DNA of 64,000 nucleotides, from contig CM037874.1 of NCBI GenBank assembly GCA_021292105.1, forward strand, positions 28,403,083-28,467,082. Direction: 5' to 3'. The notes beneath the pieces are model-generated. The model ran no database searches. It was not told where the DNA came from and worked only from the letters and a program-made list of their open reading frames with translations. This document shows positions 22,601 to 47,493 of this stretch, in pieces. The translations under genes were made by a program, and so were the position numbers. How positions within the stretch are numbered: position 1 is the stretch's first letter; the number at the start of each line of letters is the position of its first letter. The stretch comes from Anadara kagoshimensis. Lineage: Eukaryota; Mollusca; Bivalvia; Arcoida; Arcidae.

Positions 22601-25600
22601 TATAAAATTAAACCTTTTGGTATAGAAGATAAACAATTACAATTGCATTCGACGTATTTTCTTACTGTTAAACAATTTTGAAATTAAAATATACAATTAA
22701 AGTAGCGTTTTCCGAATATGTACAAATTACGAAAAAAAACAATATTGATGATTGTTAAAAAAGTTTCTCATTATGGACAATGGGGGTTTCGACAAGGGGG
22801 GTGATCTATAGCGCTTACGAATCGCATTGTCTCTCATCGCCCATTTTCGATCCCTACTCAGGTACATGCTAGTTTAAGAAATTTGTCATTTCGCTTATCG
22901 AAGGTCGGTGAGGCCCCCACCTCTTTTCCAGAACTGATCACCTCGTTGCAAGTGTACCGGGACATAAAATACCATTACTATGTGCGACTCATTATTGATA
23001 ATAAATGGTAATAGAAATCATGATGAGATTTAATTGAAGATTAATACTCATAATTTCACGTTAATTTTTCTATTACACTATTTCAGGTAATTTCGTTTCT
23101 TTTGAATTGGTGTACGTGTTTGATTCTATTTACCAAGTGGCGATTGCTGCTGTATTGTTTATAGCCATCATGGATCTGCTACGCCCATTTACATTTAACT
23201 ATTACATTTATTTAATGCGGACATCAATTCGAATAGCATACCCTACAATTGTCACATATATGATAATGTTAGCAGTTCCAGTGACAGCTTTTGCAATTCT
23301 TTTATATTTTTTGATCGGAAATATGGACTTAGAATTCAAGGATATACAAACATCACTCCTGACAATGTGGCGTATGATGCTATGTATGGTAAACTTACAC
23401 AGATCAAACGGTATACAGACCGCAGAAGCACAGTTCGTCTTTGGTCTATTCATGGTTGTTGTTGCTATTATCCTATTTAATATGTTTATAAGTATTCTGA
23501 ATGACACATTTGCTGAAGTCAAGGATCAGAAATCAGATAAATTCGAAAAGTTCGATACGGAATTAAATCGCCATTTCTGGAGAAAACTCACAAGTTTTGT
23601 TGTTAACGTCGGATACCGATTCGGAGTGGATTGGTCATATTTGTTAGAAGAAGGTATCTTTTGATTCACTTTTTTAAAATCTATATTAAAAAGTCTGTTA
23701 AAATGAACTTGATGATTTAAGGAAGAGGTCTTCTTGAAGTCTTTATGGATTTCAAATATACATTTAAAGGAAGTGTCATATTAATAAAAAGAATCAGAAA
23801 AAACAACATATTTAGTCCGATTACCTTGATTATTATTACTAAGAATAAAATATTCAGTTGTGTTATCTTACAATCAAAAACAAACATACTTATCCATTTC
23901 CGAATCACAATCCAGAAGCAAAGTAAAAACTTTTGAACTGACAAGTTAGGTTAGACACGTGAACTTCCACCAGGGAAGTGAGGCCGGGTGCTCCGGAAGG
24001 GTAAGCACCTCCTGTTTAGCTAGCTAATATATTCTTTTTACATCTATAGTTGAAATTAATCCTAACTTAATTTTAATGAAAAAAACATAAATTTCAATAT
24101 TACTTTTTACTGGAGAAAATAAGTTTGGAAAAGCAGGAAAAGACAGAAATAATTGAAAAATTTTAGGAATATACAATTGAGATTTTGAGCTAGCGATTGT
24201 TGTTTTTTATGTATTGGAATATATCTCAATATGTACTTAAAAGAATTATGCTTCTCTGCAACTTGATACTTCATCAACGACTTGAAATTGTTTTTATTTT
24301 GTAATTTACCTTGCCAAAAAGATGTTTATTTTTTGGTTTGATATGTTTGCTTTCAAAATTAAAACACATTCCTATAATGTTCCATACTATCAAGGTAAAC
24401 ATTTATCTCTAGGCATATTCTAACATGTGCATGTTTTTCATAATTTCGTTTTATTTTTATAAAAGAAAAATTGGAAAAACTAATGTTTTAAGTCCATCTC
24501 AATCATATTTTGTAGACCTTGAAGATGAGGAAGCTGTGGAGAGTAGGATGTTTGACATTATAGAAAAAGTAAGAGAATTAAAAGAATCAATTGTTTATCG
24601 AAATTATAACAGGTTGTTTATCAAATACACATAATCTTATCTTGACTTTTTGTTACATAAAACGGCTAACGAATTACGACATTTTGTTTAAAATTTATAT
24701 TTTTAAGTACATTTTCCTAGCATTTCTTGTATGCCGATCGTTATATGGTCGAATTTAATTGTGTAACACTTCAATGTTATATTGAAATTATTATATTATT
24801 TTGACCGATACGTTTAATATGAGGATAGTACGAGGGCACTTCAAAAAGTTTTGAGACTAACAGAGGAAAAATAAGAAAAAGCATTATTTTGCTTGTAATT
24901 TTTATTTTAATCCTTCAAAGTACTCTTCTTTAACATGTATACACTTTTCCATCCGAGAAATCCACGATTTGAAAGCAGCAGAGTAGTCGGACTTGGATAT
25001 CCTCTTTAAACACTGATGCACAGCACTACCAAGCTGACTTCGAGAGTTATACCGACGGCCTGCGAGCATCTTTTTTAAAGGCAGGAAAAAGAAAAAAGTC
25101 GCATGGGCTTAGATCTGGTGAATCTGGGATGTGAAAGTTGTATTACTCTTTCATTGTGAAGAAACTGGTACACTACATTACTCTTGTGGGAGGATGCATT
25201 ATCATGGATGATGTGTATGCCTCTTAAACCAGTTCTAGGGCGGAAATTATTATAGTGTTTTTTAACAGACTTTAACACCTTGTCCCTATAAAATATCCCA
25301 GTAACGGATTTACCTGGCAGAGAAGGAATCTGAACAACAGGGCCATTCGAATTGAAGAAGATTGTATACAGAACCTTTTTTGAACTTTGTAGTCGTTTTG
25401 CTATTACAGGTCTAGATTGTCCTTTTTTCAACCACTGCTTATTATTTATCCTTCTTTGGGGCTCAAAATAATGCATCCAAATTTCATCTCCTGTTAGTAA
25501 CTCACTTAATCGCCGAACATCAGTATTTTTGTATATTTTCAATATTTGTTTGCAACTTTTAACTCGTTGTGCTTTTTGTTTTTTTTTGTTAAAAGATGGG

Positions 25601-28600
25601 GTACCTTACGTGTGCATACTTTTTTCAATTTCAGGTGCTTTGTTAAAATTTGATATGTACTACTCGTTGAAATACCGAGACACGAAGCTATATCAGAAAC
25701 TGTATACCTAGCGTCTTCGTTCACCATGGCTTCAACAGCAGCAATGTTTCTTTCAGATGATGACGATTTTGGACGTCCTAAACGGGGCTTGTCTTTAACA
25801 GTTTCTTTTCCATCTGTAAACACTTTTACCAATCTATAAACAGTTGCTTTAGACACAGACGATTCTCCATAAATTATTTTAAGTTCACTCAATATCTGTT
25901 TACTTGGTATTGACAAAGCAAAACGGTTTTTGATATATCTTCTTATTTCAGACTTCTTTTCAGGCTTCATTTTACATCAAAATGTCATTAGTGTATATGA
26001 CTAACCTTTGTTTACGTCCAAATATCTCTGTAATTACTAAATATTTTTTTACGAAATTTTATACGTATATCACTCGTGATTTTACCTATTTAATTCCGGT
26101 TATCTTGTACATACGTGTCACTACAACTTTATGGAAGCCAATAAGTCTCAAAACTTTTTGAAGTGCCCTCGTAGTGAGATAGAAACGCCTCTTTTTATTA
26201 ACAATGGTAAAAGACTATCTAGTCATTGTTTTCGCTGGGTTCTTCTTTCCTATATTTTTGTCCGTTATGTAAAATATTACAAAGTGCATTGCAGATTATG
26301 TAAGACCAATTCTTATTGGCGTGGTTAAATTTGAGCAGAATCTAGTCCTTCAAAATCTAAACAATTTTTGAAATAATTTAAAAAAATGATACTACTGTAG
26401 TTTATATTTTTAACCTCTAAAACCGTTGTGGAAACTGTATGACTCTGGGTTATACAATGTTTACAAGTCGGTAGTTTTTGAGGTTAAAATTGTAAACTTA
26501 AACAATATCATAGCTATTTTTATAATCTAATTCAAATTTAATTTTGCAATCATATTTATAATTTTGATGACAATTAAATGTTTTAACACTTTACATTCAA
26601 ATTGCCACCGTCACATGGCGCATCAATTCATATGACGTCAACTGACGTATTTAGATTGTTACAATTGACAACCACCGACTTCATCATTTTTGCTAATGAC
26701 CACGTGACAAACGTTGCTTATCATAAATAAACTGCAAAAACTATTGAAAAGATATCAAGAATTAAATCGTTTATACATAACATCAATGTTAATTTATATA
26801 ATACCTTTACTTTTTAGATTCAGATATTTGACGATATATTCTCTTCAAAATACGCTTCAAGTGAAGAATATGAAACAATGGTATCTGTTGACGCCTGCTC
26901 GAAACTTCAAGATGTGTGTAAATCTGTAGGGAAGGAATGGGTTAGACCGCCAATGCATTACATATTAGGAGAAACGCCAGAAGAACTAAGATATACGTAA
27001 GTAAAATATAACAAAGTATATGGTAAATAATATCCAACTACTAGGTCACACGTTGCCTAATCCTTTTGTATATACGACTGTATGTGGCGAAAATTAAATA
27101 CCATATAGAAGTTTTATAATCATTTTTATTAGTACGATCGTATGTCGCAAAATTAAAATACCATAATGAACCTTATCTTCTTTGTATATAGGAGCGTGTG
27201 TGAAGAAATGTTTATACAATTCAATAAAGATGTTGAAACATTGTCCAACCCAATTGCGTATACGAGCGTAAATGACTTTAAGAAGTACAACATTCCAAAT
27301 GTTGCTACAGTAACAAGTCAACACACCATACTGTTAAGCAATTTATAAAGACTGAAACATTTTTGAAAGAAATTTTAGCGTTTATAGATTGAAATAACAA
27401 CAGATATCATGAAAGTCCAAGTTCCATTTACACATTATAAAAGTTTTAATTTTACAGCACTAAACGGTCGTTCTATTTAATTTTAAATCAAACTTTACAT
27501 ATCATATTGCAGATATGGATACGTCTTAAAATCATGGATTTTGGTGGTTCCTTCTTTCTAAGTTGTTGGTTCTCTTTTGGCGGTTAGACACTTTCGATAG
27601 TGCACTAAACTAAGTATATTGTTAAAAGTGTAACGGTAGCTCTATCAGTTTAGTAAAGCTATAAAACAATATTAATAAATCTGGAAGTTGAAAAATATGT
27701 AAATTTTATGCCACCGTTCACTTTCTCTTCGGCAGACACTTTATAATTTTGTAACAAAGATATTTTTTTAACATGAAAATGATAATTTTTCGAAGAATAT
27801 GCTCTATTATACGCTTAATATATTACATTTAAACATTCTCGTTTTACTAATAATTTCTAAAATACTGTAGGTATTATGACTTTGAGAACAGAAAGATTTT
27901 CCAAATCATTGGACCTGATACAGCACCGAGTACCTTAGATGAAGTGAATTGTTTTGATGATCTGCTGCAACGTAAATTACAGAATTGTTTTGAAGAAAAC
28001 GATAATATCTTAAACGAAAGATGTATAGAAATCCAGACACCAAACAGTGATTTAGAAAATGTGAGTTCATTCTTGTTAAATATTATATATAAAATATTAT
28101 ATATAAAATAATTTTAGGAAAAGTGTCTCTAATTCATGTGACAAATTTAACATTATCAAAACAGTATATTTGTAATACCTGATAAGGTGTATGAAGTATT
28201 TTTGTCTGATGCCTCTTGAATTGTACAGTATAGGATAGATAAAAAATGTCGATTTTAAGAAGTTACAAGTTATTAAAGCATTGTGTGTTTTTATCTAAAT
28301 GCCATTTTGCCAAAGATATTATATGCACAATATAAAACACATGGCTAGAAGTCGTACCAAGTGAATTTAAATAGGTATTTAGTCACTTAGTGGAAGTCCT
28401 TTGTTAAAACATTCAAAGTGTTCGCATTTTAAAACAGTACTCGCAAACTTTACGAAGTTAAAACCTAAAGCCTTACATTTATACAAGAACTTGGTGAGTT
28501 TAGATTATAATATACAGAAATATAAATTTATTTTAACTATATTTTTTATTATTACAGACTATAACAAGCATCGTCATCTTCCCAATAAATAAACAATCTC

Positions 28601-31600
28601 GGATTGTTTCCATCAGCTATAATAATGGCAGAACTTGGGAGGAATATTCTCATGATAAGGTAAGCTGCGAGATATATAGGCTGACATTAGTAATAAATAT
28701 TGAAGTAGGGGTATAAACACATAACAACTAAATTAAATACTGAATCTTAAACTAAAATGCTGTTTTCTTTGATATTGTCAACAATCTAAAGTTCACAATA
28801 ATTGTATGAATGACATAGCACATTGTCAAATTACCCAGTGACTATCGATGTCGAGAATTTCGTTAGGCGATGATCTTGTATTACGACATCAATTCATTGT
28901 GGAATCGTTTTCAACTATTCTTACATGCACTTAATCGGTATTTTTCAAATAAAAATATGTCAAATGTAAAAATGTAAAATAAATACTTCATGAAACGAAA
29001 GCAAGAATTTTGTTATTTTATCATATAGCTTTACATTTTAACTGATTTGATTTAGATAATGACTGATATTTTCTGACTTATTTTATTTTTTTATAAACGT
29101 CATTTGACAACCGTTTTGCTCTTTCATGTAAGATAATGACAAATGTCAAGGATAATCTCTTTAGAACTATTTAGTGTTTGAAATAAAATACAAATGCCTC
29201 TTCTTTTTAAGGCTAAACCTTTACAGATAAACATGTCCCGACTACCAACAAACTTGCACATGATGACTTCAGAAATACAGAAAAAACAGAAGAGTGGTTT
29301 GAAATACCAACAACCGGTACAACAGTTAGTGTTGACCTCCAGTCGGAAGGGAAAACATCAGCTTTTGAAGCGGCAAATCACTGCTCTATCACCTTTCCTT
29401 CAAACTGTTTTAGTAAACCAACAAATATTTCATTAAAGGTTTGACATATTACTTGAAATTTGAAATTCTGAATAACAATTTGGAATTTAATAAAAAGGAA
29501 AACGGGGTAGTTCAGAGTAAGAAAGATTTTGAAGCCTGAATTTTTAAGACATTAAATATGAACTGAAACAGTTGATACAGTCGCTGTGTGATATTTTATA
29601 TTATAGTCAGTTTCATAAATCTACGTAAATCAAAAACAACAATGAGCATTTAACTTCGTAAATTTATTTCATATACAATGATTAATATATTGATAACTGG
29701 ATGTTACACCTAGATGATTGCTAATTATTTCAAAATTCAACCTTGATTTATATTTATATCTTGATCATGACTATACAATATTCAATACGCTTTACGACAT
29801 TGTGTATATGTATATACCGCTATTTTATATGCTTATTTGCTTTCAGGGTAAAATCGGTGAAGAGTTTTCGGAAGTAGAAATAATTTTCTTTGAATCAACC
29901 CAAAAAGACGTTTTACTTAAGCTTCCGTTGCCAATATCATGGACTGGTAAACATAACTTTAGTGTTGTGTTGTTTTTCAGTAGAAATCTTAAAATTTGCT
30001 ATATCATAAGCGTACTTTAATTGTTTTCAAGGTGATAGTCGTTTTACATGTAACGTACGTATTGTAATTTTGATAAGTCGAATCTACATTTAAAACTGCT
30101 TATAGTTTTTCAAACATTTTCTATGCTTTATTGTAATTTTTATGCTACCTTTTTGTATCCTAAGGTTTCAGCAATTTCGTTATTGCATGGAAATTTAATA
30201 TAGATGGAGAAATAAATTAACTGATTATATAAAATCAGTATCAGACAGTGCAAGTATAGCACTAATAATGCTATATTACAATTTACTGTTTCTTTTCACT
30301 GAGAAACAAGAACTTATAACAAATAAGTTAAATTCTACTTCTGTAGAGAAATGAATCTAAGGATTGTTTTATTTTCAGGTCAGCGATCAGATTTACTACT
30401 CATTCAGAGATATGGACAAGGGATCTGGAAGATGCTGAACCTTGCAATTGTCGTCCAGGGAGATTACATTCTTTTTAACCTAGGTAGACTACAATGCAAG
30501 TAAGTCAAATATTTAATTGTTGTTGCTTCTAGCTAGTATATGAGCTAAAGAGAAACTCTTTTGGGTAACTTAATACCAATTCAAATAAATTCATACCGAC
30601 AAATACGTTAAAAGTCTTAATTTTAAATAAACAATACACTTATAACATTTTCTTAAAAAATACTTGTTCCACACCTTAAAAGAATATATTGTTCATTTTC
30701 CTGTTAGGTCAACTGAAAGGTAAGGAAAAACACATTTCTATATACATTTGAACATGTATTAAACAATGATCTCTTTGCATTGCCGTTAAAGGTAATGATA
30801 TCTAAAAGCAAATTAGATACTTTGCTTTTTTTTTAATTTGACATTGCGATCTTGACCCTATGTACCTTCAAAATTAATATTTAGTTTAGATGACGATGAA
30901 GTTCAGGTGTTTAAATAACCTGTTAGTTTCAAAGTTTTTACTTTGCTACTGGATTGTGATTCGGACATGAATTGGTATGTTTGTTTTTGATTGATAAATA
31001 AAAATAAAACAATTATTTCTTTTCTGCAGGACACAGTACAGTATTTTACTTAAGACATCTACCATAGCTAAAGTAAGTTTATACAGTATTATATTGAATG
31101 TATTTCGTTCCTCTTTACTTTGCATGTTTCGTTGATATGGTATATAAATTACATACACTTTTAAGAAAAGCTTAAAAATTATCAAATTGTCAAACTGAGT
31201 CTATTGCATAAAGTTTAACTACGGTCAGTGCTCTTAGTCTAGTAAGCTTCATCGCAACATGCAATAAAAACAAACTGTGAACATTGCTGTTGTTCTAGTA
31301 CGTATTAATAGCGCTAACAATCTCACTTATTTCATTTGATCAAAACTAAACATACTAGTCCATGGCCAAATCACAATGCAGAGGCAAGGAAACAACTTTG
31401 AAACTGGCAAGTTAGGTTAACATCCACCAGGTAATTGAGACCGGCTACTACGGAAAGGTAAGCAAACCGTTAAACTAGCTACACCCGTCACGTATGTAAT
31501 CAAAATTAAGTTAAAGGAAAAAAGAAATTTTACAAAATAACACGAGGCTAATTTATAACATTATATTTCAGATTAAACATGCAGACAACATTGTTGGGTT

Positions 31601-34600
31601 ACGTGAGTATTGTATGCTTAAGTATATCTTACAATTCGATTTTGTTTGTTTGTGTTTCGAAATATTGTGTTATTGTATGAATGGATCGTCTCAGTGACGT
31701 CATCTTATTATGGACGATGCATATGAACATTACTTAGATGTTATTACTTTACGTCTTTGGCTCAATTTTTGTTTAAATAGTTATTTTGTTTTAAAAGTCT
31801 ATAAAGTGAATGTTTTATGACATTAAATATTGATACACGTTTCCCCACATAAGCGCTCCCGATTGAAATCCAATACTGATCCTTAATCTGATTTTGTCTA
31901 TTTTACATCATTACAAGTTTTGTAAAACATCACTCTTATAACAACAAATATGACAAATTTTGATACAGAAAGTAGCTGTAAGCAAAAACTGAAATATGTC
32001 TTTACAATATCGAATGTACTATGCCAATAAAGGATTCATGTAACCCCAATTCCAAAATCTATGAAATAGCCATGAAACAAAAATATAAGATGACAGCTAA
32101 AACTACATATTCATTCCACTTGAAAGATGTATTTATGTACAGGTCCAATCCGAAGGCTTAGAGATCCCAATATATAAGTTTTAGAACACATTGTTTTTGA
32201 CGTAAATAGTACTTTTTGCATCATTTGACCTAGATATAACATTATATATCGATGCTTTGTTTTCAGTCTTTACAAAGGACATCACTTTTTGTTTGAAATG
32301 TATCAAGGGAGATAACCGTGCCTTTTGCAATTTTTTGTGACGGATTTTCGTCCATACGCTTTTTTGGTATGTCAATCGTATGTAAATATAAATAAAACCA
32401 TTAAAACATAAATATCAAAATATGTCATTTTTTTTAAAGTAAGGATTTTGCCTAGCAATAAAAATCATTTATAGGGGTATGTTATAGATATGATTCCAAC
32501 TTACAGTATTCACCGTTTGAAATATTTTATTTCAGAACAAGATTCAATTCCAATGCTGGAGAACATTTGTTATAATTTGAAAATAGCTCGTAAATGGCGA
32601 CAACTAGCCCTTGTTTTAGGAGTTTACTCCACCATAATGCAGCTGAAGAAAGTATCTATCCCAATGTGTGCTGAAGAGTTATGTTTTCTGACTTGTTATG
32701 AATGGACTAAAATAAATGACTGTCCTCACATTGACAAATTCATTAATATCTTGAATGAGTCAGGGATATTAGATTCAGGTAATGTATATGTTGAAGTCAT
32801 ATATTTTGTGGTATCAGAAGATTCTAGAAAACATTTGCTTATTACAAATCACTGTCAATACACATGAAAACCCTTATGTTCGATCTTGTTTTAAGACGCC
32901 AATGCAGTAGGAAATACTTTGCATGTGAGAGTATACCTAAATTTTTGAGGAACTTCAGATTTGAAGTTGCAGCAAATTTAGAAAATAGTATATATCTGAT
33001 ATAACAAAATTATTGCTTAATGAGTTTGTAATATCCTTGGGGAAACATCCACCAGCAGAGAAACCAGCTCAGTAGTTAGTTTTAATGACATAATATACCA
33101 GTTTTACGGGGTGTAAAAGTAGGTTTCCTCAGAAGAAGAAATGCCGTAATATTTTCAAATTTAAAACTACATTTGACTTTTAGTGTTACTAGATATCTTA
33201 CTTATTGATCGGAAAAGACAAATATCTAATCATTTTTGAGAAATCTTTGAAATAATGCATTTGAAAGTTCCTCAAAAATTAAGGTATACTGCCCATTTTA
33301 TGACATTATCAGATCAGTCGCGGTAAAACAGTTTTTGTTGCGGGGACTGAACAAAAATTAAAAACAATGTTTACAAATCGATGCTGAAAAGATCATTCTA
33401 GTGCATGGGAGCAGAGTTTGTTAAAGGAATATGAGATTTTTTGAAAATTTGACTACTAATGTTTAATGTCGTTTACGATTCAGTTTCCTTCTAAATCAGC
33501 GTGTACCAGGCGTGGCATTCATAATTTAAGGTTACCAAGGCTTCAAAATCTAGCAAGTAATCAAAAGAACATCGTAACACAAAACTGTTCTATATTATTT
33601 AAGGCCCATATTTTTTATTATGAACAATTATGAACACAATATAACTGAAATGTCTCAAAAATAGATAAAGGATACAGAAACTTGGTATTTATTATCGATA
33701 CTTGGTTCGTTGATGGCCTTATAATACGAATGATCACGCCTGGTATACGCAGTTTTAGATGGCAAATAAATCATGAAAGTTATTGGTCAAACATTGTCAA
33801 ATTATTCTAAAAGGTTAATTTTGTTTAAAAGACTAAAGCTCCGTACTGATTTTTAATCACTAATTGGTAAACTTTATTTTTATTTTGTTCAGCCCTCACA
33901 TCAACAATTGTTTTGCCGCGGAGGTCCTAATAATTGCTAATAAAATTCATAAATTTAAAGATCCTTTTAAAAAAGTCAACGTTATGTTTTCTTATCATCA
34001 AGTAATATATCTAGTGAAAGTAAAATTAAAAACCAGTTGTATATATTAAGATATTTCGAAATTCCTTCCTTTGTTGATACTTATATTAACCCCCTTTATT
34101 TCACAGCTCTAGACGGCCGTTTCGGAATACAATTCCTCACCAGTAATACAAAATTGAGTTAAAAAGATGTAGAAACTTTAATGTCTTAATTTTGGTAGTA
34201 TGCATTAACCAGTGACAGTAAAACCTTTAAAAACAAACGAATATTGAACAAAAAACGAATTCATGTTACAACCCGTGATTCTATAAGTATACAGTTCAAA
34301 CAGTTTCATTAAGTGTCAAAAACGTAGTATTTTTCCTGTTAATTGAAAGTTCGAATTGAAATACATAAAAAACTTTATGGTAGAAGCAATAAATTGGACA
34401 AAAATCCGACATTTTGTTTTTGACGGAATTAAATATGAGTATTAGGCTTGATGTGTTAAATTGATTAGTTTTAGCGTGGACAAATTTAGCACGATTTAGC
34501 GGTACAATTAGCGCTACTGTATTGTGAAAACCACTAAAATCAGTGTATGCGCTGTATACCAAAGAACTGTTATTTCAACGCTGGTATTTATTCATGGTTG

Positions 34601-34686
34601 TAACATCTTTACATATTTCATATAAATGTATTGAATATATTGTAGATACTCTGATTGACGTTGACAACCAGCCAAGTGATGAATAG
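301..34686 (+). CDS. Gene A: polycystin-1-like receptor/channel with ZU5/UPA-like and Death-like C-terminal tail (5' partial)
   Basis: Spliced gene, about 28 exons and roughly 1,850 codons visible; the 5' end lies before the window. Order of parts: EGF-like module, helical region plus GAIN-like domain, degenerate GPS, TM1, PLAT, TM2-6, polycystin extracellular domain, TM7-11, a charged linker, ZU5/UPA-like beta-rich exons, Death-like exon, stop at 34684-34686. Known of the family: polycystin-1-like proteins are 11-TM plasma- or ciliary-membrane receptors that assemble with PKD2-type subunits. Seen here: codon phase is continuous across nearly every junction from 301 to 32778, and the same exon order recurs in inverted gene B. 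Exceptions are an apparent frameshift in exon 29212-29438 and a doubtful exon at 27871-28060. Two neighbouring genes is the alternative, but no stop or first exon separates the channel part from the tail. Function of the tail is inferred. Confidence 0.8.
1636..1846. mobile_element. MITE with ~60-bp terminal inverted repeats
   Basis: The left arm (CCGTAATGGGGTTTGCCGC onward, through CCACGTGAT to ACGTTTGTGCGGAAC) is matched in inverse by the right arm (GTTCCGCACAAACGTTAAGA to CCCCATTATAATG). Non-coding, about 210 bp. Confidence 0.75.
1941..3426. mobile_element. piggyBac-like non-autonomous element, TTAA-flanked
   Basis: Begins TTAACCCTCTTGCTGCCAAA and ends in the inverse, TTTGGCAGCAAGAGGGTTAA. 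The TTAA target duplication and the CCCTCTTGC-type ends fit piggyBac. Short ORFs inside (2735-2959, 3218-3517) show no recognisable transposase. It ends 43 bp before exon 3470. Confidence 0.7.
3470..3609 (+). CDS. Gene A exon: helical extracellular segment
   Basis: Acceptor TTTAAG ends at 3469 and donor GT starts at 3610. Phase 1 in, phase 0 out. It encodes an amphipathic helical stretch containing KYAEDVQLMFQDQIRLNYP. Probably the N-terminal helical part of the GAIN region; that assignment is inferred from position. The exon starts only 43 bp after the end of a TTAA-flanked transposon. Confidence 0.65.
3714..3955 (+). mobile_element. Dispersed repeat family copy (diverged, near full length)
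   Basis: Contains GCAAGCCTAGGCTTATTAAG, the GCTAGCTTAAC block, TTACCCTTCCAG and the end GATTTGGACATGGATTTGTA. Same order as the copies at 9262 and 59892. Confidence 0.6.
4586..4673 (+). CDS. Gene A exon: helical extracellular segment
   Basis: Acceptor TTTTAG ends at 4585 and donor GTAATA starts at 4674. Phase 0 in, phase 1 out. Contains MVATGKNLMSTLQNSANDG, a helix-rich segment continuing the previous exon. Confidence 0.65.
5098..5122. repeat. (TTA)n microsatellite next to a splice acceptor
   Basis: About eight TTA units directly before the CAG acceptor of exon 5127-5206. Confidence 0.85.
5127..5206 (+). CDS. Gene A exon: helical extracellular segment
   Basis: Acceptor CAG ends at 5126, just after a TTA microsatellite that forms its polypyrimidine tract. 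Donor GTAAGT starts at 5207. Phase 1 in, phase 0 out. Encodes a helix followed by a CSTC pair. Confidence 0.6.
5371..5425. repeat. Perfect 26-bp-arm hairpin
   Basis: Arms 5371-5396 and 5400-5425 are exact inverse complements (AATAGTGTATCCTTTTTGGT...), with a 3-base loop GAC. Confidence 0.9.
5428..5486. repeat. Second hairpin, 17-bp arms
   Basis: CATATACTTATTATAGA (5428-5444) is the exact inverse complement of 5470-5486. It lies two bases after the previous hairpin. Confidence 0.8.
6033..6269 (+). CDS. Gene A exon: GAIN-like region, first part
   Basis: Acceptor AG at 6031-6032, donor GTATGT at 6270. Phase 0 on both sides, and the splice to exon 7457 is in frame. It contains a helical part and then KLPYWETFQI, the typical turn into the beta-rich GAIN fold (inferred). 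An alternative acceptor at 6039-6040 would shorten it by 8 nt and break the phase. Confidence 0.65.
7457..7946 (+). CDS. Gene A exon: GAIN-like beta-sandwich
   Basis: Acceptor TTTCAG ends at 7456, donor GTAATT starts at 7947. The 490 nt correspond exactly in length to two gene B exons (279 + 211 nt), so one intron present in B is absent here. Shared features are the opening ILSY-x-x-NPY, an acidic D-x-DDP stretch and the closing C-E/T-G. By position and fold pattern this is the GAIN domain before the GPS; no sequence search was possible. Confidence 0.75.
8104..8700. repeat. Minisatellite, ~65-bp unit, about nine copies
   Basis: Repeats contain TATCGTGATAAGAAAACCGC, TGACGTCATG and CTACCATTCAGCTTTCTTAC at intervals of about 63-74 bp from near 8110 to 8700. 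In the intron after exon 7457-7946. Units are diverged. Not CRISPR. Confidence 0.85.
9262..9602 (+). mobile_element. Dispersed repeat family, long copy (~340 bp)
   Basis: Shares its whole length with 59892-60236: TTGTTGACTCGGGGATATTG, CATCACAGTATTGTTGATAAG-like block, CACACGTGAAGGTGTAGCTA, CACCCGGCCGCACTTCC, and a conserved end TGGATTGTGATTCGGACATG. It encodes nothing recognisable. Class unknown. Confidence 0.75.
10140..10225 (+). CDS. Gene A exon: pre-GPS strand, non-canonical GC donor
   Basis: Acceptor AAATAG ends at 10139. The exon ends CAG followed by GCAAGT, a GC-AG type 5' splice site. Phase 1 in, phase 0 out. It encodes HRYRIAATDILYLENGVWK, with the tryptophan that opens GPS motifs. 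The gene B equivalent (62092-62207) uses a normal GT donor. Confidence 0.7.
10852..11085 (+). CDS. Gene A exon: degenerate GPS and TM1
   Basis: Acceptor TTTTTTAG, donor GTGAGA, phase 0 on both sides. Contains FGTFSASVFLIPPDTINF, which matches the post-GPS strand typical of polycystin-1 proteins (the F-G-A-S-L-F-V-P-P pattern). The hydrophobic TM1 YALVANVVLFVIAILVSLLL follows. The usual GPS cysteines and the H-L-S/T cleavage tripeptide are missing, so autoproteolysis is unlikely. Confidence 0.8.
11548..11718 (+). CDS. Gene A exon: PLAT domain, first half
   Basis: 171 nt, the same as its gene B partner, phase 0 on both sides. Starts with W and contains YFISVYTG, the signature strand of PLAT/LH2 domains, which lie in the first cytoplasmic loop of polycystin-1 proteins and bind lipid or protein partners. 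Confidence 0.85.
11787..11892 (-). mobile_element. Dispersed repeat family, end fragment
   Basis: Starts CAAAAACAAACATACTAATC, then CGAATCACAATCCAGAAGCA and GAACTTCCACCAGGGAAGTG. Confidence 0.7.
12073..12227 (+). CDS. Gene A exon: PLAT domain, second half
   Basis: 155 nt, the same as its gene B partner. Contains LIWHDNGGPSPRWFLDKIVI, the strongly conserved PLAT core (W-H-D-N-x-G, P-x-W-x-L-D-x-I). Phase 0 in, phase 2 out. Acceptor TTTCTATAG, donor GTAAGT. Confidence 0.88.
12606..12739. mobile_element. Palindromic MITE
   Basis: AGGGTTATTCAACTGATATT and GTTGACTCGACATTTG on the left are mirrored by CAAATGTCGAGTCAAC and ATATCAGTTCAATAACCC on the right. Near-complete fold-back of about 130 bp. 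Confidence 0.7.
13215..14540. mobile_element. CGCGAA-rich MITE, split by the Tigger-like element
   Basis: TTTCGCGTGTCGAATCC and TTTCGCGAATATTT on the left, and TTTGCGAATATTCGCGTGAT and ATCGCGAAATTACGCG on the right, resemble the intact element at 49841-50073. The outer limits are approximate. Confidence 0.5.
13311..14378. mobile_element. Tigger/pogo-like non-autonomous DNA transposon
   Basis: The left end TAAAGTGAAACTTCCCTAAA with CCGGACA repeats is mirrored at the right end by GGTTTAGAGAGGTTTCACTGTA, with TA on both sides. The CAGTGAAACCTCTCTAAACC-type end is characteristic of Tigger elements. No transposase frame seen. Confidence 0.65.
14562..14645. repeat. Inverted repeat
   Basis: TGTTCAGTTACAAATTTCTT is mirrored by AAGAAATTTGTAACTGAACA across a roughly 35-bp centre. 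Confidence 0.7.
14728..15388 (+). CDS. Gene A exon: end of PLAT, TM2, TM3, charged loop, TM4, TM5
   Basis: 661 nt. Starts F-x-C-N-x-W-L-S, the end of PLAT. Then RFTRVQRLWTLMALLFLSMV (TM2) with the M-W-Y-N motif typical of polycystin-1 proteins, VGVMSSAIAILPSLLIVICF (TM3), a loop rich in Lys/Glu, a PWWMIFFAYFLVFACIF helix (TM4) and a further hydrophobic stretch ending E-P-L-K. Donor GTAAAT at 15389. The gene B equivalent has a frameshift after TM3. Confidence 0.88.
15599..15655 (+). pseudogene. Relic tandem duplicate of the start of exon 15683
   Basis: Acceptor and first roughly 53 bases closely resemble those of exon 15683-15812, 84 bp downstream (both read A-T-T-G-C/T-T-G-T-T-T-C-A-T-T-C-G). 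Its frame hits TGA at 15635. It looks like a decayed tandem exon copy or a competing acceptor. Confidence 0.55.
15683..15812 (+). CDS. Gene A exon: end of TM5 and loop
   Basis: Acceptor CTTTTGTAG ends at 15682, donor GTAAGC starts at 15813. Begins VIVVSFAIALICKR, finishing a membrane helix, then a hydrophilic loop. Phase 0 in, phase 1 out, the same phases as gene B exon 56929-57046. Confidence 0.75.
16116..16212 (+). mobile_element. Dispersed repeat family, end fragment
   Basis: GAAGTTCACGTGTCTAACCT, then GTTCCAAAGTTTTTACTTCG and GATTGTGATTCGGACATAGA. Confidence 0.7.
16335..16558 (+). CDS. Gene A exon: charged loop and TM6
   Basis: Acceptor CTTTTCAG, donor GTAAGT. Encodes a basic/acidic loop then FIRVMYIVMLCVICSHNTIF (TM6, the S1-equivalent of the channel domain). 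Phase 1 in, phase 0 out, as in gene B. Confidence 0.82.
17084..17255 (+). CDS. Gene A exon: polycystin extracellular domain, first part
   Basis: 172 nt, identical in length to gene B exon 54696-54867. Contains W-x-W-L/I-x-x-S-F-I and YNYRLGPVRMRQVRIK, the R-L-G-x-x-R-x-R-Q-x-R signature of the TOP domain of PKD channels. Confidence 0.85.
19185..19500 (+). mobile_element. tRNA-derived SINE-like dimer
   Basis: Two tRNA-like parts: 19216-19270 with GGTGGCCCAATCGGTATGGG and a B-box-like CGGGTTCGAGTTCC, and 19424-19475 with GTAGCTCAATCGGTAGAACG. Each is followed by a T-rich tract. Too diverged for a working tRNA. Confidence 0.55.
19626..19671. repeat. (ATTT)n microsatellite
   Basis: About eleven TTTA units. 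Confidence 0.9.
20870..20965 (+). CDS. Gene A exon: polycystin extracellular domain, Cys-containing segment
   Basis: 96 nt, the same as gene B exon 53440-53535, phase 1 on both sides. Conserved cysteines (S/A-C-x-V-P, I-C, F-C) probably form TOP-domain disulfides. It follows a 3.6-kb intron largely occupied by a mobile element. Confidence 0.8.
21361..21948 (+). CDS. Gene A exon: polycystin domain core, TM7, TM8
   Basis: 588 nt (gene B 585 nt), phase 1 on both sides. Contains GIFGVYGNGGYAVNLG, W-I-D-x-x-T-R-A and N-A-N-T-R, the defining polycystin (PKD_channel) motifs. Then LLFIAVVFIRIIMLII (TM7) and IWVGFLDIFFSITAIIFYIL (TM8). Confidence 0.9.
22011..22132. mobile_element. Palindromic MITE
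   Basis: ATGAAGTTAACTTACCTTTT and TTATGGAAATAAGAA on the left are mirrored by ATATTTCCATAACAACAAAA and TTAACTTCATTT on the right. Part of it (TTGTCCAATT, TTCATATTTCC) recurs near 960-1000. Confidence 0.65.
23087..23653 (+). CDS. Gene A exon: TM9-TM11 of the channel-like domain
   Basis: 567 nt (gene B 564 nt), phase 1 on both sides. Contains the S4-like LLRPFTFNYYIYLMRTSIRI, TM10 (IVTYMIMLAVPVTAFAILLY), a pore-loop position lacking an L-G-D-type filter, and TM11 (VFGLFMVVVAIILFNMFISI). Ends with F-D-x-E-L-N-R/E-H-F-W-x-K, shared with gene B. The donor GTATCT at 23654 avoids an intronic stop 9 bases later. Confidence 0.9.
23868..24030 (-). mobile_element. Dispersed repeat family, partial copy
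   Basis: CAATCAAAAACAAACATACT through GAACTTCCACCAGGGAAGTG to GGGTGCTCCGGAAGGGTAAG and the TAGCTAGCTA block. Confidence 0.7.
24516..24568 (+). CDS. Gene A exon: acidic linker after the channel domain
   Basis: Acceptor TTTTGTAG ends at 24515; I chose donor GTAAGA at 24569. Encodes D-L-E-D-E-E-A-V-E-S-R-M-F-D-I-I-E-K. Gene B has the matching exon 49378-49439 in the same phases, which supports the link to the downstream exons. A later donor after 24612 is possible. Confidence 0.6.
24831..26171. mobile_element. mariner (Tc1-mariner superfamily) transposon
   Basis: TIRs CGAGGGCACTTCAAAAAGTT and inverse AACTTTTTGAAGTGCCCTCG, flanked by the TA duplication at 24829-24830 and 26172-26173. About 1.34 kb, in the gene A intron after exon 24516. 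Contains one broken transposase on the - strand. Confidence 0.9.
24902..25970 (-). pseudogene. mariner transposase, frameshifted
   Basis: Starts MKPEKKSEIRRYIKNRF with a helix-turn-helix region (DIASCLGISTSSTYQILTKH). The frame breaks at about 25540 and resumes with RRLSELLTGDEIWMHYFEPQ (first catalytic Asp) and IHIIHDNASSHKS (second Asp). A second break at about 25130 precedes the S-P-C/P-M-R/D-F-F-x-F region that should carry the third Asp of the DD34D triad, and it ends near 24902. About 350 codons if unbroken, normal for mariner; not functional as read. Confidence 0.85.
26818..26996 (+). CDS. Gene A exon: linker to ZU5-like region
   Basis: Acceptor TTTTTAG at 26817 (alternative CAG at 26823, same phase). 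Donor GTAAGT, phase 0 in, phase 2 out. F-D-D-I near the start and H-Y/F-Y near the end match gene B exon 49005-49162. No known domain recognised. Confidence 0.65.
27192..27309 (+). CDS. Gene A exon: C-terminal region of unknown fold
   Basis: Phase 2 in, phase 0 out, donor GTAACA at 27310. Encodes VCEEMFIQFNKDVETLSNPI; aligns to gene B exon ending at 43013 (V-Q-C-A-D-V). Confidence 0.6.
27871..28060 (+). CDS. Gene A candidate extra exon
   Basis: Good acceptor (ACTGTAG) and donor (GTGAGT) enclose 63 open codons beginning Y-Y-D-F-E-N-R-K. The exon starts in phase 2, whereas the preceding exon ends in phase 0, and skipping it keeps the frame. Gene B has no counterpart. It could be alternative, start instead at 27886, or be spurious. 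Confidence 0.35.
28558..28659 (+). CDS. Gene A exon: ZU5-like beta strands
   Basis: 102 nt, phase 0 on both sides. SISYNNGRTWEEYSHDK matches gene B SLNSGQTWEVCNNE in exon 42491-42625. Confidence 0.65.
29212..29438 (+). CDS. Gene A exon: ZU5-like region with apparent frameshift
   Basis: Strong acceptor CTTCTTTTTAAG, donor GTTTGA. Entering in phase 0 the frame is open for only about 74 codons and ends at a TAA, but homology to gene B (the N-x-C-S-I-T-F and F-E-I-P positions) and the phase of the next exon require the other frame after about 29285. The switch falls at an A6 run at 29281-29286, consistent with a 1-nt loss or an assembly error. An alternative acceptor at 29226 lies in the second frame but does not match the incoming phase. 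Confidence 0.55.
29847..29946 (+). CDS. Gene A exon: ZU5/UPA-like segment
   Basis: 100 nt, phase 0 in, phase 1 out. E-V-E-I-I-F-F followed by LLKLPLPISWTG resembles the V-x-L-x-L-P-x-P stretch found where ZU5 passes into UPA in death-receptor-like proteins. Confidence 0.65.
30379..30499 (+). CDS. Gene A exon: UPA-like segment
   Basis: 121 nt, identical to gene B exon 40627-40747, phase 1 in, phase 2 out. Pattern L-L-L-I-Q-R-Y-G-x-G-I-W, then a buried I/L-F-N-L strand, shared with gene B (I-V-I-K-R-E-G-R-S-N-W-F). Confidence 0.7.
30897..30993 (+). mobile_element. Dispersed repeat family, end fragment
   Basis: TTTCAAAGTTTTTACTTTGC, then TGGATTGTGATTCGGACATG and TATGTTTGTTTTTGATTG. Confidence 0.65.
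31030..31072 (+). CDS. Gene A small exon: UPA-like strand
   Basis: 43 nt, the same length as gene B exon 39816-39858. Encodes T-Q-Y-S-I-L-L-K-T-S-T-I-A-K, aligned to T-W-I-S-F-L-V-K-A-S-V-M-Q-W. Acceptor TTCTGCAG, donor GTAAGT. Confidence 0.7.
31339..31490 (-). mobile_element. Dispersed repeat family, partial copy
   Basis: Diverged: ACATACTAGTCCATGGCCAA, AATCACAATGCAGAGGCAAG, CATCCACCAGG, then a TAGCTACACC block. Confidence 0.55.
31572..31602 (+). CDS. Gene A small linker exon
   Basis: 31 nt, phase 0 in, phase 1 out. Acceptor ATTTCAG, donor GTGAGT. Corresponds to the 25-nt gene B exon 38810-38834; the shared core is S/N-I-V. Confidence 0.6.
32536..32778 (+). CDS. Gene A exon: Death-domain-like
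   Basis: 243 nt, phase 1 on both sides, about 80 residues, the usual size of a Death-superfamily domain. Pattern L-x-x-I-x-x-x-L-x-x-A-R-K-W-R-Q-L-A-L-V-L-G, then a helix with C-F-L-x-x-Y-x-W and a final L/I-N-I-L-N-E-S-G. The W-x-x-L-A-x-x-L-G core is the Death-domain hallmark. Gene B keeps W-R-Q-F-A-x-x-L and the final L-R-L-E-G. Death domains mediate homotypic assembly in apoptosis and NF-kB signalling; the role here is inferred. Confidence 0.7.
32930..33292. mobile_element. MITE with inverted ends
   Basis: AGTATACCTAAATTTTTGAG with GAACTTCAGATTTGAA is mirrored by TTTGAAAGTTCCTCAAAAAT and TAAGGTATACTG. Confidence 0.65.
33487..33768. mobile_element. MITE with inverted ends
   Basis: GTGTACCAGGCGTGGCATTC and the AAGG block are mirrored by GAATGATCACGCCTGGTATA and TTTTAGATGG. 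Lies 200 bp from the previous MITE, in the last gene A intron. Confidence 0.6.
34646..34686 (+). CDS. Gene A terminal exon and stop
   Basis: Acceptor TATTGTAG ends at 34645. It joins the phase-1 end of the Death exon to read D-T-L-I-D-V-D-N-Q-P-S-D-E and then TAG at 34684-34686. Gene B likewise ends with one short hydrophilic exon. Confidence 0.6.
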
Positions 34687-37113: not shown

Positions 37114-37184
37114 TCATCTGTAGCCTCCATTTGGTGTTGTTTTTGGTTTCGATTTGTTTGCACTTATAAATCGCTCAAGACCAT
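37114..37184 (-). CDS. Gene B terminal exon and stop
   Basis: Acceptor TTTTTTTGCAG. Reads G-L-E-R-F-I-S-A-N-K-S-K-P-K-T-T-P-N-G-G-Y-R and then TGA at 37116-37114. A basic hydrophilic tail without a recognised motif. Confidence 0.65.
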
Positions 37185-40100
37185 CTGCAAAAAAAGAAAA
37201 TATTTGTAATAGTCAAAAAGAATTACACATGTTATCTGATTTTTTATATAATCATTGATGGGTTTTTATATTAAAATATAATATATATAACTAATATATA
37301 ATTATTCAGAATTTTCCATTCTTTATAGTTCAAATACGAAAACCATGGAACAATTATGTAATATTGTGCTAAAATATATATACATTGTGTTGATGATGCT
37401 TATTTTAAATACATTTACATATTACATATAACATAGAAAAATATTAATCAAATTAATTGCAAATAAATCTTTAAGATTTTTCTCAATATTATACATGTAT
37501 AACTACTGCCAAAATTTGATCTTATATATCTGTGAGCTTAATCAGTTTCACATTATTCTTTACCGAGAGATACCTAATTTAATAATTCCCTTATGATTTT
37601 AAATAAGCATATTCTATGAAAACGCATATAATTATATTGGTCTACATTACAGAAAAAAATGACGGATCGCCGACCACGCACACAATGTCCCGACAAAGGT
37701 ACGGCATGCTTGACGTATACACAAACAGAATTGAAAACTTGGCCTGAATTGTGCTATTTAATGATGTTACTGAGACTCGTCCGTCATTAGTTGCCGTGAC
37801 GCTGCTTTTGTACCGTGATGGTAGCCAAAGTCGAAACATTAAATTCATGACGGGCGATACGTCAAAAATGTTTCCACAACTTACTTGCGACTTGTTGAAA
37901 TCCTTCCAATCTCAAAACTTTTATAATATCTTTCACCTTGATGTTTGGTTGAATCTCCGCATATTTATAAAAAACAAGAAAACACTTTTCCTCTTCCGAA
38001 ATTAACTCCCGTTGTGAAATTGAGTTTATATAATCTGTCGTTAAGTTTAAACGTTTTGCAAACTGCCGCCACCTAACTGCTACCTGCTGATATTTACTGG
38101 TTAAATTGACAACATTTGTAATGCTGGAATCTGCAAAATTAGACAGAAATCATTAAATATCGGGTTAAATATGCTTGTATAACAGTTTTCAAATTGATTT
38201 TTCACAGCCCGGATTATTTTTGTTGTCATATACGTCACATCATACCAAGTCACGCATTTAGTCACAGCTACAAGAAAAAACTGTTCATATATAAAAATAT
38301 TACGTAGACATTCAACTCGGATATTGCGGCAGTCAAATATTCCAAAGATTTCATATGTACATCGAAACTATGTATGACCAAAATCTGTTTTTCAAAGTAC
38401 CAGCATGCAGAGAATAATCGTAAAAAAGCGTCCTAAACGCAACTGAAAATTCGTAACTATTCTATTGCTATGTTTTTGAGAGAGATTGAGGGTAATATTT
38501 GAGAAAAATAAACAAGCTTCTCAAAGTTGAAATATTGGTTGCAGCCTTACCATAAATGGTTAAAATAGATACTAATTTAGAAAAGAAAGAACAAAACAAA
38601 AATGGATCATAGCAAGAGTTTTTAACTACGAAACAAGAAGATGTTTTAATTAGTAAAAATTTACATATCACTTATTTCTTTTTTGTCCATTATTAATTTA
38701 AAAGAATCATTATTTTGAAAACATAATGTACATAATAAATTTCTCAAAGATCACGGTTATAAGTGATGTCTAGTATTTCCTTTTTGTTAATTAAATAGTC
38801 GCCACTTACTTTTTACAATGGACTTGCTGCCAATCTGAAATAACAAAACCATACATTGAACAAAATAAATTATATATAATGACGTCTCATAGTTCCATGT
38901 TCCTTTCAAACAATTTTGATTGCACGCGTGGTGGGTGTAGCCAGCTAAACAGGAGCACCCGGCCTCACTTCCCTAGTGGAAGTTCACGTGTCTAACCTAA
39001 CTTGTCAGTTCCAAAGTTTTTACTTTGCTTCTGGATTGTGATTCGGACATGGATTAGTATGTTTGTTTTTTATTATATATACATTGACAACGTTATAAGG
39101 ATGAACGTGTTCAAAATGAAATCCTTACAAGAAAAGTTAGATTAAAATTGATTGTTTATTGTCACGAGAGCCATAAATCAACTTTTGTATTCCTTGCTGA
39201 ACCTCGAAAATATTGCATTGGTCTAAAGTTCTGACACTTGTCTAGGTAATTTAAATAAAACTCATTATTACACATAACATAATTTTAAAACTACTATTTA
39301 AATGTATTTTTTGATGAAAGGATTTCTAATACTGAACTTTGTCAATTTTGATTCATTTTGATAACTTGGAATTTGAAACTTTTCTTTGCAAAGATTCCAG
39401 TTATTCATATACCATTTAAAACCTTGGTGTTTAAACGTAACTACTTACTACATACTTACCGTCAAGGCGAAGAAGCGTTAAAACATTAAACAGTACAGTT
39501 TGTGGTGACATAATAACAATTGCCTTGTTTAATGTCAACTTCGTATTTTTTCGTTTAATGCGTTAGTTTTGTTAAAATAAGGTTTTAAACTCTGAGTGTA
39601 GTAAATATTTGTATTTACATAAAAAAGAATATATCAGTATACGTTTATGTGGAATCTGAAAAAAATAATCATCGTCCTTGTTCAGCATTTTATATCTGTA
39701 TCATGGCTTGCTGTTTTGTAAAAGAATGCAAGTTAATAATTTGTTTTATACGTTATATGAATTTAAAATCAGAGAAAGTTTTGTAGAGAATAGAAGGTTT
39801 TGTATTTTTACTTACCCATTGCATCACCGATGCTTTCACAAGAAAGGATATCCATGTACTGAAACAAACATTAATAAGGTTTATATTTATATAATTTAAA
39901 AAAAAACAAAAATCATAAAAATCTGTTGGCATAACTTGTCCAATGTAGAACGTAAATAATATAAATAATAAACAAAGGCAGATATAGCGATACATCAGCA
40001 ATTAGATAACCAAAAATCCAAAATCCACTATGAAGTATCAAAAACAAAAATACCAAACTGAGAAAACACGGTCTTTTGAATGGCATGTGTACTTCTGATA

Positions 40101-43100
40101 GTGCGAGATACGTTTCAACTTACAACGTGTTGAACAAGAACTATAAACACATATATGAGTTTAATTAATATATCTTGGTAATGCATTTAATGACGAATAA
40201 GTTGATTAAAGAGATTTAAGTGTTTATATATGTCGTTTACTATGTACAGTTTTAATCAAAAGCAAACATACAAATCCTTGTCCAAACCACATTTCAAAAG
40301 GAACAGGTAAAGTAAAACTTTTAAACCTTTTCAATTAGTTTTTTCACGTGAACACTCATTAGAAAAACCAAACCGAGTGTTCCGGAAGCGTAAGCACCTT
40401 CTGCCAGCTACAACCGCCATGTGATTACTAAATTATTATTAAAAGAGCCTGAAACGTCAAATTCGTCCAGTATATTTTTTATACAGAAACAACATAATTA
40501 TCATACTATATATAAATGTAAATAACGTTTTTTCCGACGTTTATTTACTCTAGATGAAATTTAATGACAGTAAATATAAACCAATTGCATATTGAGTCAC
40601 AATATATGTCTATATTGAATAATTACCTTGTGTGTTCTATTTGCAATTTAAATACTGCATAACCTTGATTATAGGTAAAATATGTGTTGACAATAAACCA
40701 ATTTGACCGCCCTTCTCTTTTAATGACAATAAGCTCCTGCGAATTATCTGAAACGTGAAAGATCGTTATAAATTATAAAATGTATCATTATGCATAGATT
40801 AAAAGTTATTTTTAAAATCCAATGACCTGACTCTTTGCCGTAAGGAAATTGTATAATAATCACTTATCGCTATGAATATTGTATTTGAAAATTCACTCAT
40901 TTGAAATATGTCACATCGGTTCGTTTCAAAATATTTCATCTGACTATAATCTATATATAAAGCTAGGTATATGAACCTTTTTAAAAGCAATAGAATATAA
41001 CCATTGAAAAGCTAAAATATGCAATAATTTATGACTTCACAAATTCACAAGTTTGTCTTTTTTAACGATTAATTTCTCTATACGACTGATAACCCCCTTA
41101 ACAATGATGACTCGTCGATATAATTTACCGTTTACACATGGTATACGAACTTCTATTGGTTTAACCAATTGTCTGTTTAACCAAAGAAAAATGCAGGTGC
41201 TCTGTGAATATGGTTGTGTCTGAAAGATAGGAAAAAATAATTCGAAAAAGAACTGGTAATGTCAACTGTGTTCAAAATATGAATAAAAAAAACTAAACAT
41301 GACTGAAAAAAGTTATATGATTTTTGAAAACTGATCATTAAACCCTACTTTGAATGGCCAGAAGATGTGATGTTGTCATGCCAATGTTAGAGTAAACAAT
41401 CATCTTGATTAAGATTTCAATAATAATACATTTTAAAAGTGATATAACAGATGCATAATGCGACATTTGGAAATCGGATATTTTAACAATACCCTAAGAC
41501 AACAAACAATTTTGCCATCTCTCGATTGCATATAATAAATAAACTCTATATACAACATTACTGACAAAGACTACAAATTCATTATGTTTTTGATATCTGT
41601 TTTTACCTTTATTCTAACTGTGCAGTCGCTGTAAAAACATTGACTTTCAAATTTCAGTTGTACATCGCTTTTTGACTTCGGAGATATTTCACAACCTTCT
41701 GGTGTTACAATAAATTCTTCAAAATCTGATTTCTGCTTTGTTGTTATATGTGTTGGAAGAGTATTCAGTACAGTTGACATAACTGTTGTGGTCTATGTCA
41801 AAATAATTAAAAAGATAATGTTTTGAAAAGCAATTAATAATTATTCGAATTTGACAACAGGATATTGGTAAAACAATATAGGATATGTAAAAATTATGCA
41901 TTTTTACAAAACATATCATATTTTGGCAAACATAAAAATCATTATATAATATCTTTACCCAGATATATATAATCGTTCATAGAATAACGAGCATTATCTG
42001 TGTTTGCATCCAATGAATTAAAAACTTGAAACATACTTGTGGCCAATATAACAGTGAAAGCACGAAACAACAAATCTAAGAACAAGAAAGCTAAGAAGCC
42101 ACTATATTGTTAATCTGCAAAATTACTAAAACAATGAATACAATGGTAACAAGGACTATTTGCATGTCTATTGCAATCACTATATTTTATAAGCATAACA
42201 GTGTCTTTGTATCCGAAAGTGTCCTGGATATGTTTTAAGTTCTGCAGGTCCATGCTTCTTTCATTTTCAAGTTCGATTTCACACTTGATAGTACATTTAT
42301 AAGTAAATATTTCTGGAAAACACTTTTTATGTGAAAATTAGTGTATTTAATTACCTTGACAGTTTTCAAAAAGCTGCCACTTTGTCACAAGCTTGTTTTG
42401 ACAGGGAACTTTATGTTAGTGTTTGATAACAACTAATTATTAAAAAAACAAGTTGTAAAACATCTTTAAACAGTATCTATTACAACTTACATTTCCATTT
42501 TTATCTTTGGATCTTTCATTGTTGCAAACCTCCCATGTTTGTCCGGAGTTCAAGCTTACCAATATTTCTAAGCCACATGGATTGTTATCCTCATCTGCGT
42601 TATATATTTCACATTGTATTTTGCCCTACAACATGTTTATGTATTTAATAAAAATATTAGTAAAATTATTAAGTTGACTAACCTCTTATATAAATAAACG
42701 CATCTTTGTTGTTATGCCACCATTCGGAATATATACAATGGCATTATAAAATTTACATTTTTTTCATTTCGAATTGTCATTTATAGAACACAGCAACTTG
42801 AATTTGATGATGTTAACTTGCCAACAATTAATACAAAAGAAACAATTTAACAGTAACACTGGAAAACCAGACTTGATGAACTAGTTGACGCAACCGATTA
42901 TAAAACACTTACAGAATGTAAATGGAAAATGAATTTATCAGTTTGGATTCAAGTTGTCTGGTAATTTAAGTAAACTCATAGAAAACAAGACAGCGAGAAA
43001 GTTAAAAATTACCTGGACAGTGTAAGGAACACTTTTTTCAAGTTGATAAACTGTTCTATCAGATAATTCGTCATCAAAAGGTAAAAGCTCTTTTTCCATA

Positions 43101-43712
43101 TAAGCAGTCACATCGGCGCATTGCACAAGACCAACTCCCTCCTTTAAGGGTCTTTAAGGAATCCTTAAAGATCCTTAAAGATGTCCTTAAAGATCCTTAA
43201 AGCCTCCTTATAGACCCCTTTAAGGACCACCATCTTCTTTAAGGATCTTTAAGGCTTCCTTACAGATCCTTAATGGAACTGAAATTTTAAGGATCTTTAA
43301 TGCAGCTTTAAGGATCTTTAAGGATCACCCTGACATACACATGTATTTAAATCATATAATGGTGTTTTTTCAACCACCCTGAATTGGCTAAGGATGCACC
43401 ATTATTTATTTATTTATTTATTTATTTGGTATATATTACACAAAAATAATTGGAGAAAAACGCGATTAAAAATAAATGTCCGGTGATAAAGTTTCATGAT
43501 TGTTTTCAAAGTAATTAATTAATTAATTAATTAATTAGTTGATTAATCATTGAATTAATTAATTAATTAATTAATTAATCAATTAATTAATTAATTAATT
43601 AATTAATTAATTAATTAATCAATTAATTAATTTAATTAATCAATTTTTATTTATAATCTATACTGCTCCGAATATTATGTCCGAGCTCTAAATTGATTCA
43701 ATGTACAACTTC

Positions 43713-43755
<43 letters not shown>

Positions 43756-44255
43756 TTAAACTAAAACAAAGTGTAGTTTTGACTATTTATCATTATGGAT
43801 TTATGCCCATAGGTAATATACAAATCATGGTTCCTAATTGATGATCATCAACATTTCCCCGGTATCTCATCAACAACTTACCTAACTAATTGATAACAGA
43901 AGCAAATTCAAACTCATTTTAACCGGACGATAGTATATTCTACCTGAAAAATTTACCCTATGTTGTTAATCTCTTTAATTACCTAGATGGATTTGAATTT
44001 TAATGGAATCTGATGATTAATCTACATGAGTAGTAATGTTAGGGATACTTTAGATACTTTTTACCAATTGTTATTTGTGTGTTAATAAATAAATAAATAA
44101 ATAAATAAATAAATATTTTTAAAAACGTTAATAAGTATATGAAATATGAGAGAGAGAGAGAGAGAGAGGGCAGAGCGAAGACTTGTACATCATCAGTTTT
44201 TAAACTACCATTATTTGATATTTCTTATTTCATGACCTTGAAATGTATATTCATA

Positions 44256-44322
<67 letters not shown>

Positions 44323-44399
44323 ATTATCATATAAATTAATAAATAAATAATCAAATGAATATATAAATAATCATATAAATGAATATATAAATAATCATA

Positions 44400-44439
<40 letters not shown>

Positions 44440-44612
44440 CAAATAAATAAAAAAGCAATCAAATAAATAAATAAATAAATAAATAAAAAATAATAAATAA
44501 ATAAACCACAATTTCATAGACAAAACTGGTAGATTCATTTGCACTATCTTCTTCATGTAATAATTTCTCGATCGATCCAGTAAAATAACTTGTATTCTCT
44601 GATCAAGTTGTT

Positions 44613-44649
<37 letters not shown>

Positions 44650-45909: not shown

Positions 45910-45963
<54 letters not shown>

Positions 45964-46589: not shown

Positions 46590-46644
<55 letters not shown>

Positions 46645-47462: not shown

Positions 47463-47493
<31 letters not shown>

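Follow-up and report, generated by a model that had tools for sequence, protein, structure and literature searches.

Polycystin-1-type channel genes with a predicted ZU5-like and Death-domain tail in the bivalve Anadara kagoshimensis

The window considered here is a 64,000-nucleotide stretch of the Anadara kagoshimensis genome (C18:28403083-28467082). It holds two polycystin-1-like genes arranged tail-to-tail, gene A on the + strand and gene B on the - strand. Sequence comparisons support the view that A and B are polycystin-1-type channel genes continuing into a ZU5-like and Death region, and that this pattern recurs in a paralogous family. Judged from sequence, channel and Death domain very probably belong to one protein architecture throughout the family. 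A fuller reading, namely that these are receptor-channels whose ZU5-like/Death tail signals through Death adaptors, is given a probability of roughly 0.5. The parts are already known; we know of no report in which a polycystin channel is combined with a ZU5-like block plus Death domain.

The channel identity of both genes is clear from domain matches. Pfam Polycystin_dom and PKD_channel score 120.7 and 69.0 bits in gene A and 104.9 and 76.0 bits in gene B, all above their cut-offs, and the Protein Data Bank (PDB) matches of the channel parts are polycystin-2, PKD2L1, PKD1L3 and polycystin-1. Gene B also contains a PLAT domain (43.1 bits, cut-off 23), which is assigned in gene A by exon homology to gene B. 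Among the exon pieces that precede PLAT, none had a Pfam match to GAIN or GPS, although no search was aimed at these domains. Matching coding pieces of A and B are 25–58% identical; because the last channel exon shows only 33.5% identity, the two are considered old paralogues.

A first-pass annotation of the window had run gene A from its last channel exon through linker exons and beta-rich exons into a Death exon and a stop. This chain stands, with splice borders present and phases matching, and it recurs in gene B, in near-copies of both genes and in three of four further loci. The last channel exon of gene A (PKD_channel; 23087..23653, this and all following exons on the + strand) leaves in phase 1, and 11 exons then lead to the stop at 34686. 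They are linker exon 1 (24516..24568), which has the same phase in B and in the paralogous locus c8_46.98; linker exon 2 (26818..26996); the two parts of a first beta-like block (27871..28060 and 28558..28659); ZU5-like exons a (29212..29438) and b (29847..29946); an exon carrying the end of the ZU5-like block and a following stretch (30379..30499); a short exon (31030..31072); a second short exon before Death (31572..31602); the Death domain exon (32536..32778), so named by profile and by its AlphaFold2 fold; and the last exon, with the stop (34646..34686). An exon at 27192, previously counted in the chain, was rejected. Its acceptor is lost and its frame broken in the near-copy, and when it is left out the junction between 26996 and 27871 is in frame.

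Gene B has its exons in the same order and phases, all on the - strand. The last channel exon (51286..51850, the 5′ border at the high coordinate being approximate) ends in phase 1 and is followed by linker exons 1 (49378..49439) and 2 (49005..49162). The next exon, belonging to the first beta-like block, is split in the window into a left piece (48239..48317) and a right piece that includes duplicated target bases (43013..43123); between them lies a 5115-bp insertion (43124..48238). Part 2 of the beta-like block (42491..42625), ZU5-like exons a (41607..41792) and b (41129..41219), the end of the ZU5-like block with a following stretch (40627..40747), a short exon (39816..39858), a short exon before Death (38810..38834), the Death domain exon (37885..38130) and the last exon with the stop (37114..37184) complete the chain.

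The statement in the first-pass annotation that no stop divides channel from tail is untrue of the window, because gene A has a frame break and gene B the insertion. In gene A, ZU5-like exon a has 227 bases, against 228 in the near-copy, and this one-base change in length leads to stops downstream in the window frame; it may be a mutation, an allele or an assembly error. The near-copy of the A/B pair is inverted and lies at C18:26.724-26.748 Mb, 1.7 Mb from the window (C18:26724001-26748000 compared with window positions 20000-52000). It matches in collinear blocks of 79–98% identity. There the insertion is absent, the gene B exon is single, and both tails, when read with unchanged exon borders, have an open frame as far as the stop: 443 residues in A′, counting the junction codon, and 442 in B′. 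The A′ and B′ tails can be aligned over 279 columns (22% identity, E=7e-15). This alignment, together with the shared exon chain, implies that two old paralogues have in common both the tail and the linker exons between tail and channel.

The tail is under purifying selection between the copies. For the A tail, synonymous divergence (dS) is 0.092 and nonsynonymous divergence (dN) 0.027 over 442 codons, giving a dN/dS of 0.29; for the B tail, dS is 0.045 and dN 0.008 over 377 codons, giving 0.17. The A channel exon shows 20 synonymous and 0 nonsynonymous differences in 188 codons. Under neutrality, a simple binomial P is 7e-5 for the A tail, 5e-4 for the B tail and 3e-14 for the A channel exon. 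Across exons 28558-31072 of gene A, introns included, the two copies hardly differ, and the flanks differ more, a pattern as after gene conversion.

The Death-like domain proposed for gene A is borne out by several lines of comparison. The Pfam Death cut-off of 22.6 bits is passed by two of six paralogue exons, those of c8_46.98 and c8_2.95 (26.9 bits each); c18_37.88 reaches 22.0 and gene B 19.2, and gene A has no match. An AlphaFold2 model of the gene A exon (mean predicted local distance difference test, pLDDT, 75.9; predicted template modelling score, pTM, 0.67) has 14 Foldseek matches, all of them Death, at E values of at least 0.83; its 13 VIA rows are likewise all Death. The gene B exon gave a poor model and no Death match by structure search. 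With a family Death profile, the best PDB matches are FADD chains. The matches of profile and gene A model include FADD, RIPK1, TNFR1, ankyrin-3 and ankyrin-B, and a PIDD chain is weakly matched by the profile (E 1.6). Thus, Pfam in the paralogues, the profiles and, for gene A, the modelled fold support the prediction that the tail exon of the family encodes a Death domain.

The block ahead of it had been described as ZU5/UPA-like, and the comparisons support only the ZU5-like part of that description. No Pfam ZU5 match was obtained in any of five family members, for which reason we call the block ZU5-like. All six PDB sequences found by the family profile at E<=10 are ankyrins, the best at 4.4e-5, so that the profile supports a predicted ZU5-like block of ankyrin type. 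When left out of the profile, the gene B exons score 1.7e-4 and 9e-4, and the gene A exons only 0.022. No UPA domain appeared in the Pfam scan of the members, and the PDB matches reach no further than position 117 of the 153 in the profile. A profile search of the PDB gave no relative for the first beta-like block.

Genome searches, over 1.115 Gb in 36 contigs, place this arrangement in a wider family. PKD_channel has 36 matches genome-wide, grouped into 29 loci, of which 21 were not read as DNA. Four further PKD1-like loci were examined over 20 kb each: c8_46.98, c8_2.95, c18_37.88 and c18_32.25. A downstream Death exon is present in all of them but c18_32.25 (tblastn E values of 9e-8, 4e-6 and 4e-4 among the three), as are ZU5-like exons with the same phases; neither was found in the 20 kb of c18_32.25. 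Linker exon 1 is identified in A, B and c8_46.98, is ambiguous in c18_37.88 and was not found in c8_2.95. The same three Death-bearing loci have a second Death-like exon ahead of the last one, with weak Pfam support in one of them (21.7 bits, below the cut-off), and a tandem Death tail is possible there.

Searches with individual exons return largely to channel genes. The gene B Death exon gave seven matches at E<=1, the best five adjoining a PKD_channel exon; that of c8_46.98 gave nine, the best seven adjoining one, including A and A′; and that of c18_37.88 gave six, five of them adjoining one and the sixth lying on C11 at E 0.24. That is, all matches of the three queries with E<0.2 are near a PKD_channel exon, at eight of the 29 channel loci, and these eight lie 6.5–13.5 kb from a PKD_channel match on the same strand. 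For a single locus, the chance of lying on the right strand and no more than 15 kb downstream of one of the 29 channel loci is about 2e-4, near-copies being non-independent events. The ZU5-block query gave nine matches, eight in three C8 channel loci and a weak one on C4. Pfam ZU5 itself has 10 matches genome-wide, none within the tailed channel loci. Elsewhere, a Pfam Death exon at C5:4956639-4956881 (46 bits) lies 36 kb from a PKD_channel match at C5:4993240 on the same strand, and is probably a gene separate from that channel, a second channel-Death link being the less likely reading. Genome-wide, many Death matches form equal-score pairs within a contig, for example C15:18786166 and C15:19932108, a pattern that suggests many recent duplications or haplotypes retained in the assembly.

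Might the ZU5-Death exons instead be a gene of their own, one invariably found directly downstream of a polycystin gene and duplicated with it? The introns of the linker region, at 0.9–4 kb, and the two of five paralogues with no assigned linker exon 1 weigh against a single protein. Against a separate gene stand the phase-matched channel and linker exons of A, B and c8_46.98, the last of these having as linker exon 1 the sole candidate by phase, length and splice quality in 80 kb of the four loci, with thresholds set after the exon had been seen. The linker exons also have no conserved methionine, those of gene B having none at all, and paralogues as old as A and B hold the whole chain in common. 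A separate gene is regarded as very improbable. A different concern is that A and B of the window are decaying duplicates that yield no channel-Death product, the working genes lying among the copies and paralogues; this is compatible with the favoured reading, and we put it at even odds, an estimate not additive with the others. The frame break in exon 29212-29438 and the insertion in the gene B exon speak for such decay. In contrast, later exons remain open and copy-to-copy dN/dS is well below 1, so any decay of the window copies would be recent, and the difference of one base may stem from a faulty assembly. Because both window tails look damaged, working proteins more likely come from the near-copies and paralogues than from the window genes.

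The main rival accepts the architecture and differs on its use. The tail may be an ankyrin-like anchoring module by which the channel is tethered, either to the spectrin cytoskeleton or to a scaffold, with a structural Death domain that has no role in cell death. Several points favour it: the ZU5-like profile matches ankyrins only, the Death matches include the Death domains of ankyrin-3 and ankyrin-B, and ankyrins end in ZU5-ZU5-UPA-Death, according to the title of PDB entry 4d8o. However, the Death profile finds its best matches in FADD chains and not in ankyrins, neither ankyrin repeats nor UPA were found in the family, and three paralogues have two Death-like exons. To our knowledge, two Death-like exons are no feature of ankyrins. 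We regard the anchor as rather unlikely, and the present evidence does not separate it from the adaptor-receptor reading.

For the adaptor-receptor reading, the following mechanism is proposed. The cytosolic tail, which in A and B has about 440 residues, would comprise the linker, the first beta-like block, the ankyrin-type ZU5-like block and the Death domain. Activation or gating may bring tails together or lift the hold of the ZU5 block on them, whereupon the Death domains would nucleate a Death-adaptor complex of FADD, RIP, IRAK or caspase type. A sensed cue would in this way have two readouts, ion flow and death-domain signalling. The clustering or Death-release step, with the adaptor recruitment that would follow, is modelled on UNC5 and the death receptors. 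Adaptor recruitment as the output of the tail is rated a little short of an even chance. A link to apoptosis or innate immunity, as raised in the first-pass annotation, would likewise follow from the Death domain. More tentatively still, the channel itself may be a death-domain receptor, in which gating or ligand binding clusters tails bearing one or two Death domains behind a ZU5-like clamp, so that a mechanical or chemical cue is turned into adaptor assembly plus ion flow.

Known systems share some of these features and lack others. With the polycystin-1 family (PKD1, PKD1L1-3 and PKDREJ), genes A and B have in common PLAT, Polycystin_dom and PKD_channel. Vertebrate polycystin-1 ends in a short coiled-coil tail, whereas A and B carry the predicted tail of about 440 residues with its ZU5-like block and Death domain. 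UNC5 netrin receptors are transmembrane proteins with an Ig and thrombospondin ectodomain, one transmembrane helix and a ZU5-UPA-Death cytosolic tail. Both they and the family described here would be membrane proteins with a ZU5 or ZU5-like and Death cytosolic tail, a polycystin channel replacing the UNC5 ectodomain and single helix; however, no UNC5 chain is among the PDB profile matches of the ZU5-like block. Ankyrins provide the best profile match of that block and a similar Death fold, but this family is fused to a channel, shows no ankyrin repeats and has the second Death-like exon in three paralogues. As in the death receptors and adaptors TNFR1, FADD and RIPK1, all three among the matches, Death lies near the C-terminal end of a membrane protein, here a multi-pass channel with a ZU5-like block ahead of Death. 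PIDD1 (LRR-ZU5-ZU5-UPA-Death) likewise has ZU5 followed by Death, and a PIDD chain is the weak match of the Death profile given above. PIDD1 is not a membrane protein and has an autocleavage motif; inspection of the tails by eye revealed no motif of this type.

How polycystin-1 signals is a long-standing question, and a lineage in which the channel is joined to a ZU5-like/Death module provides an output that can be read. Should these Death domains assemble adaptors upon channel activation, polycystins would be possible direct triggers of death-domain signalling, and the family would represent channels that act as Death-domain receptors in their own right. Searches of open-licence PMC papers, which did not extend to databases or other journals, brought up no title, abstract opening or consulted passage describing a polycystin with a Death domain, and passages of PMC8195603, PMC8260672, PMC3482391, PMC6080411 and PMC6836662 do not describe a channel-Death fusion. 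A passage of PMC6836662 cites an enlarged Death-domain gene set in a deep-sea mussel.

Mobile and repeated sequences are also present in the window. The insertion in gene B has inverted ends CACAAGA and a target duplication of 3 bases, and close to its ends CCTTAAAGG-like repeats are numerous; no long transposase open reading frame was found within it. It looks transposon-like, and we take it to be CACTA-like. Two overlapping open reading frames on the minus strand, at 25075-25976, lie within a gene A intron whose counterpart in the near-copy is much shorter, and presumably resemble a mariner-type transposase. A short interspersed repeat of about 100–220 bp occurs on both strands of the window, at 153-264, 9389-9619, 11771-11890, 16116-16217, 23869-24029, 30898-31000, 31342-31532, 38872-39081, 50609-50731 and 60017-60247, and is found in the near-copy as well.
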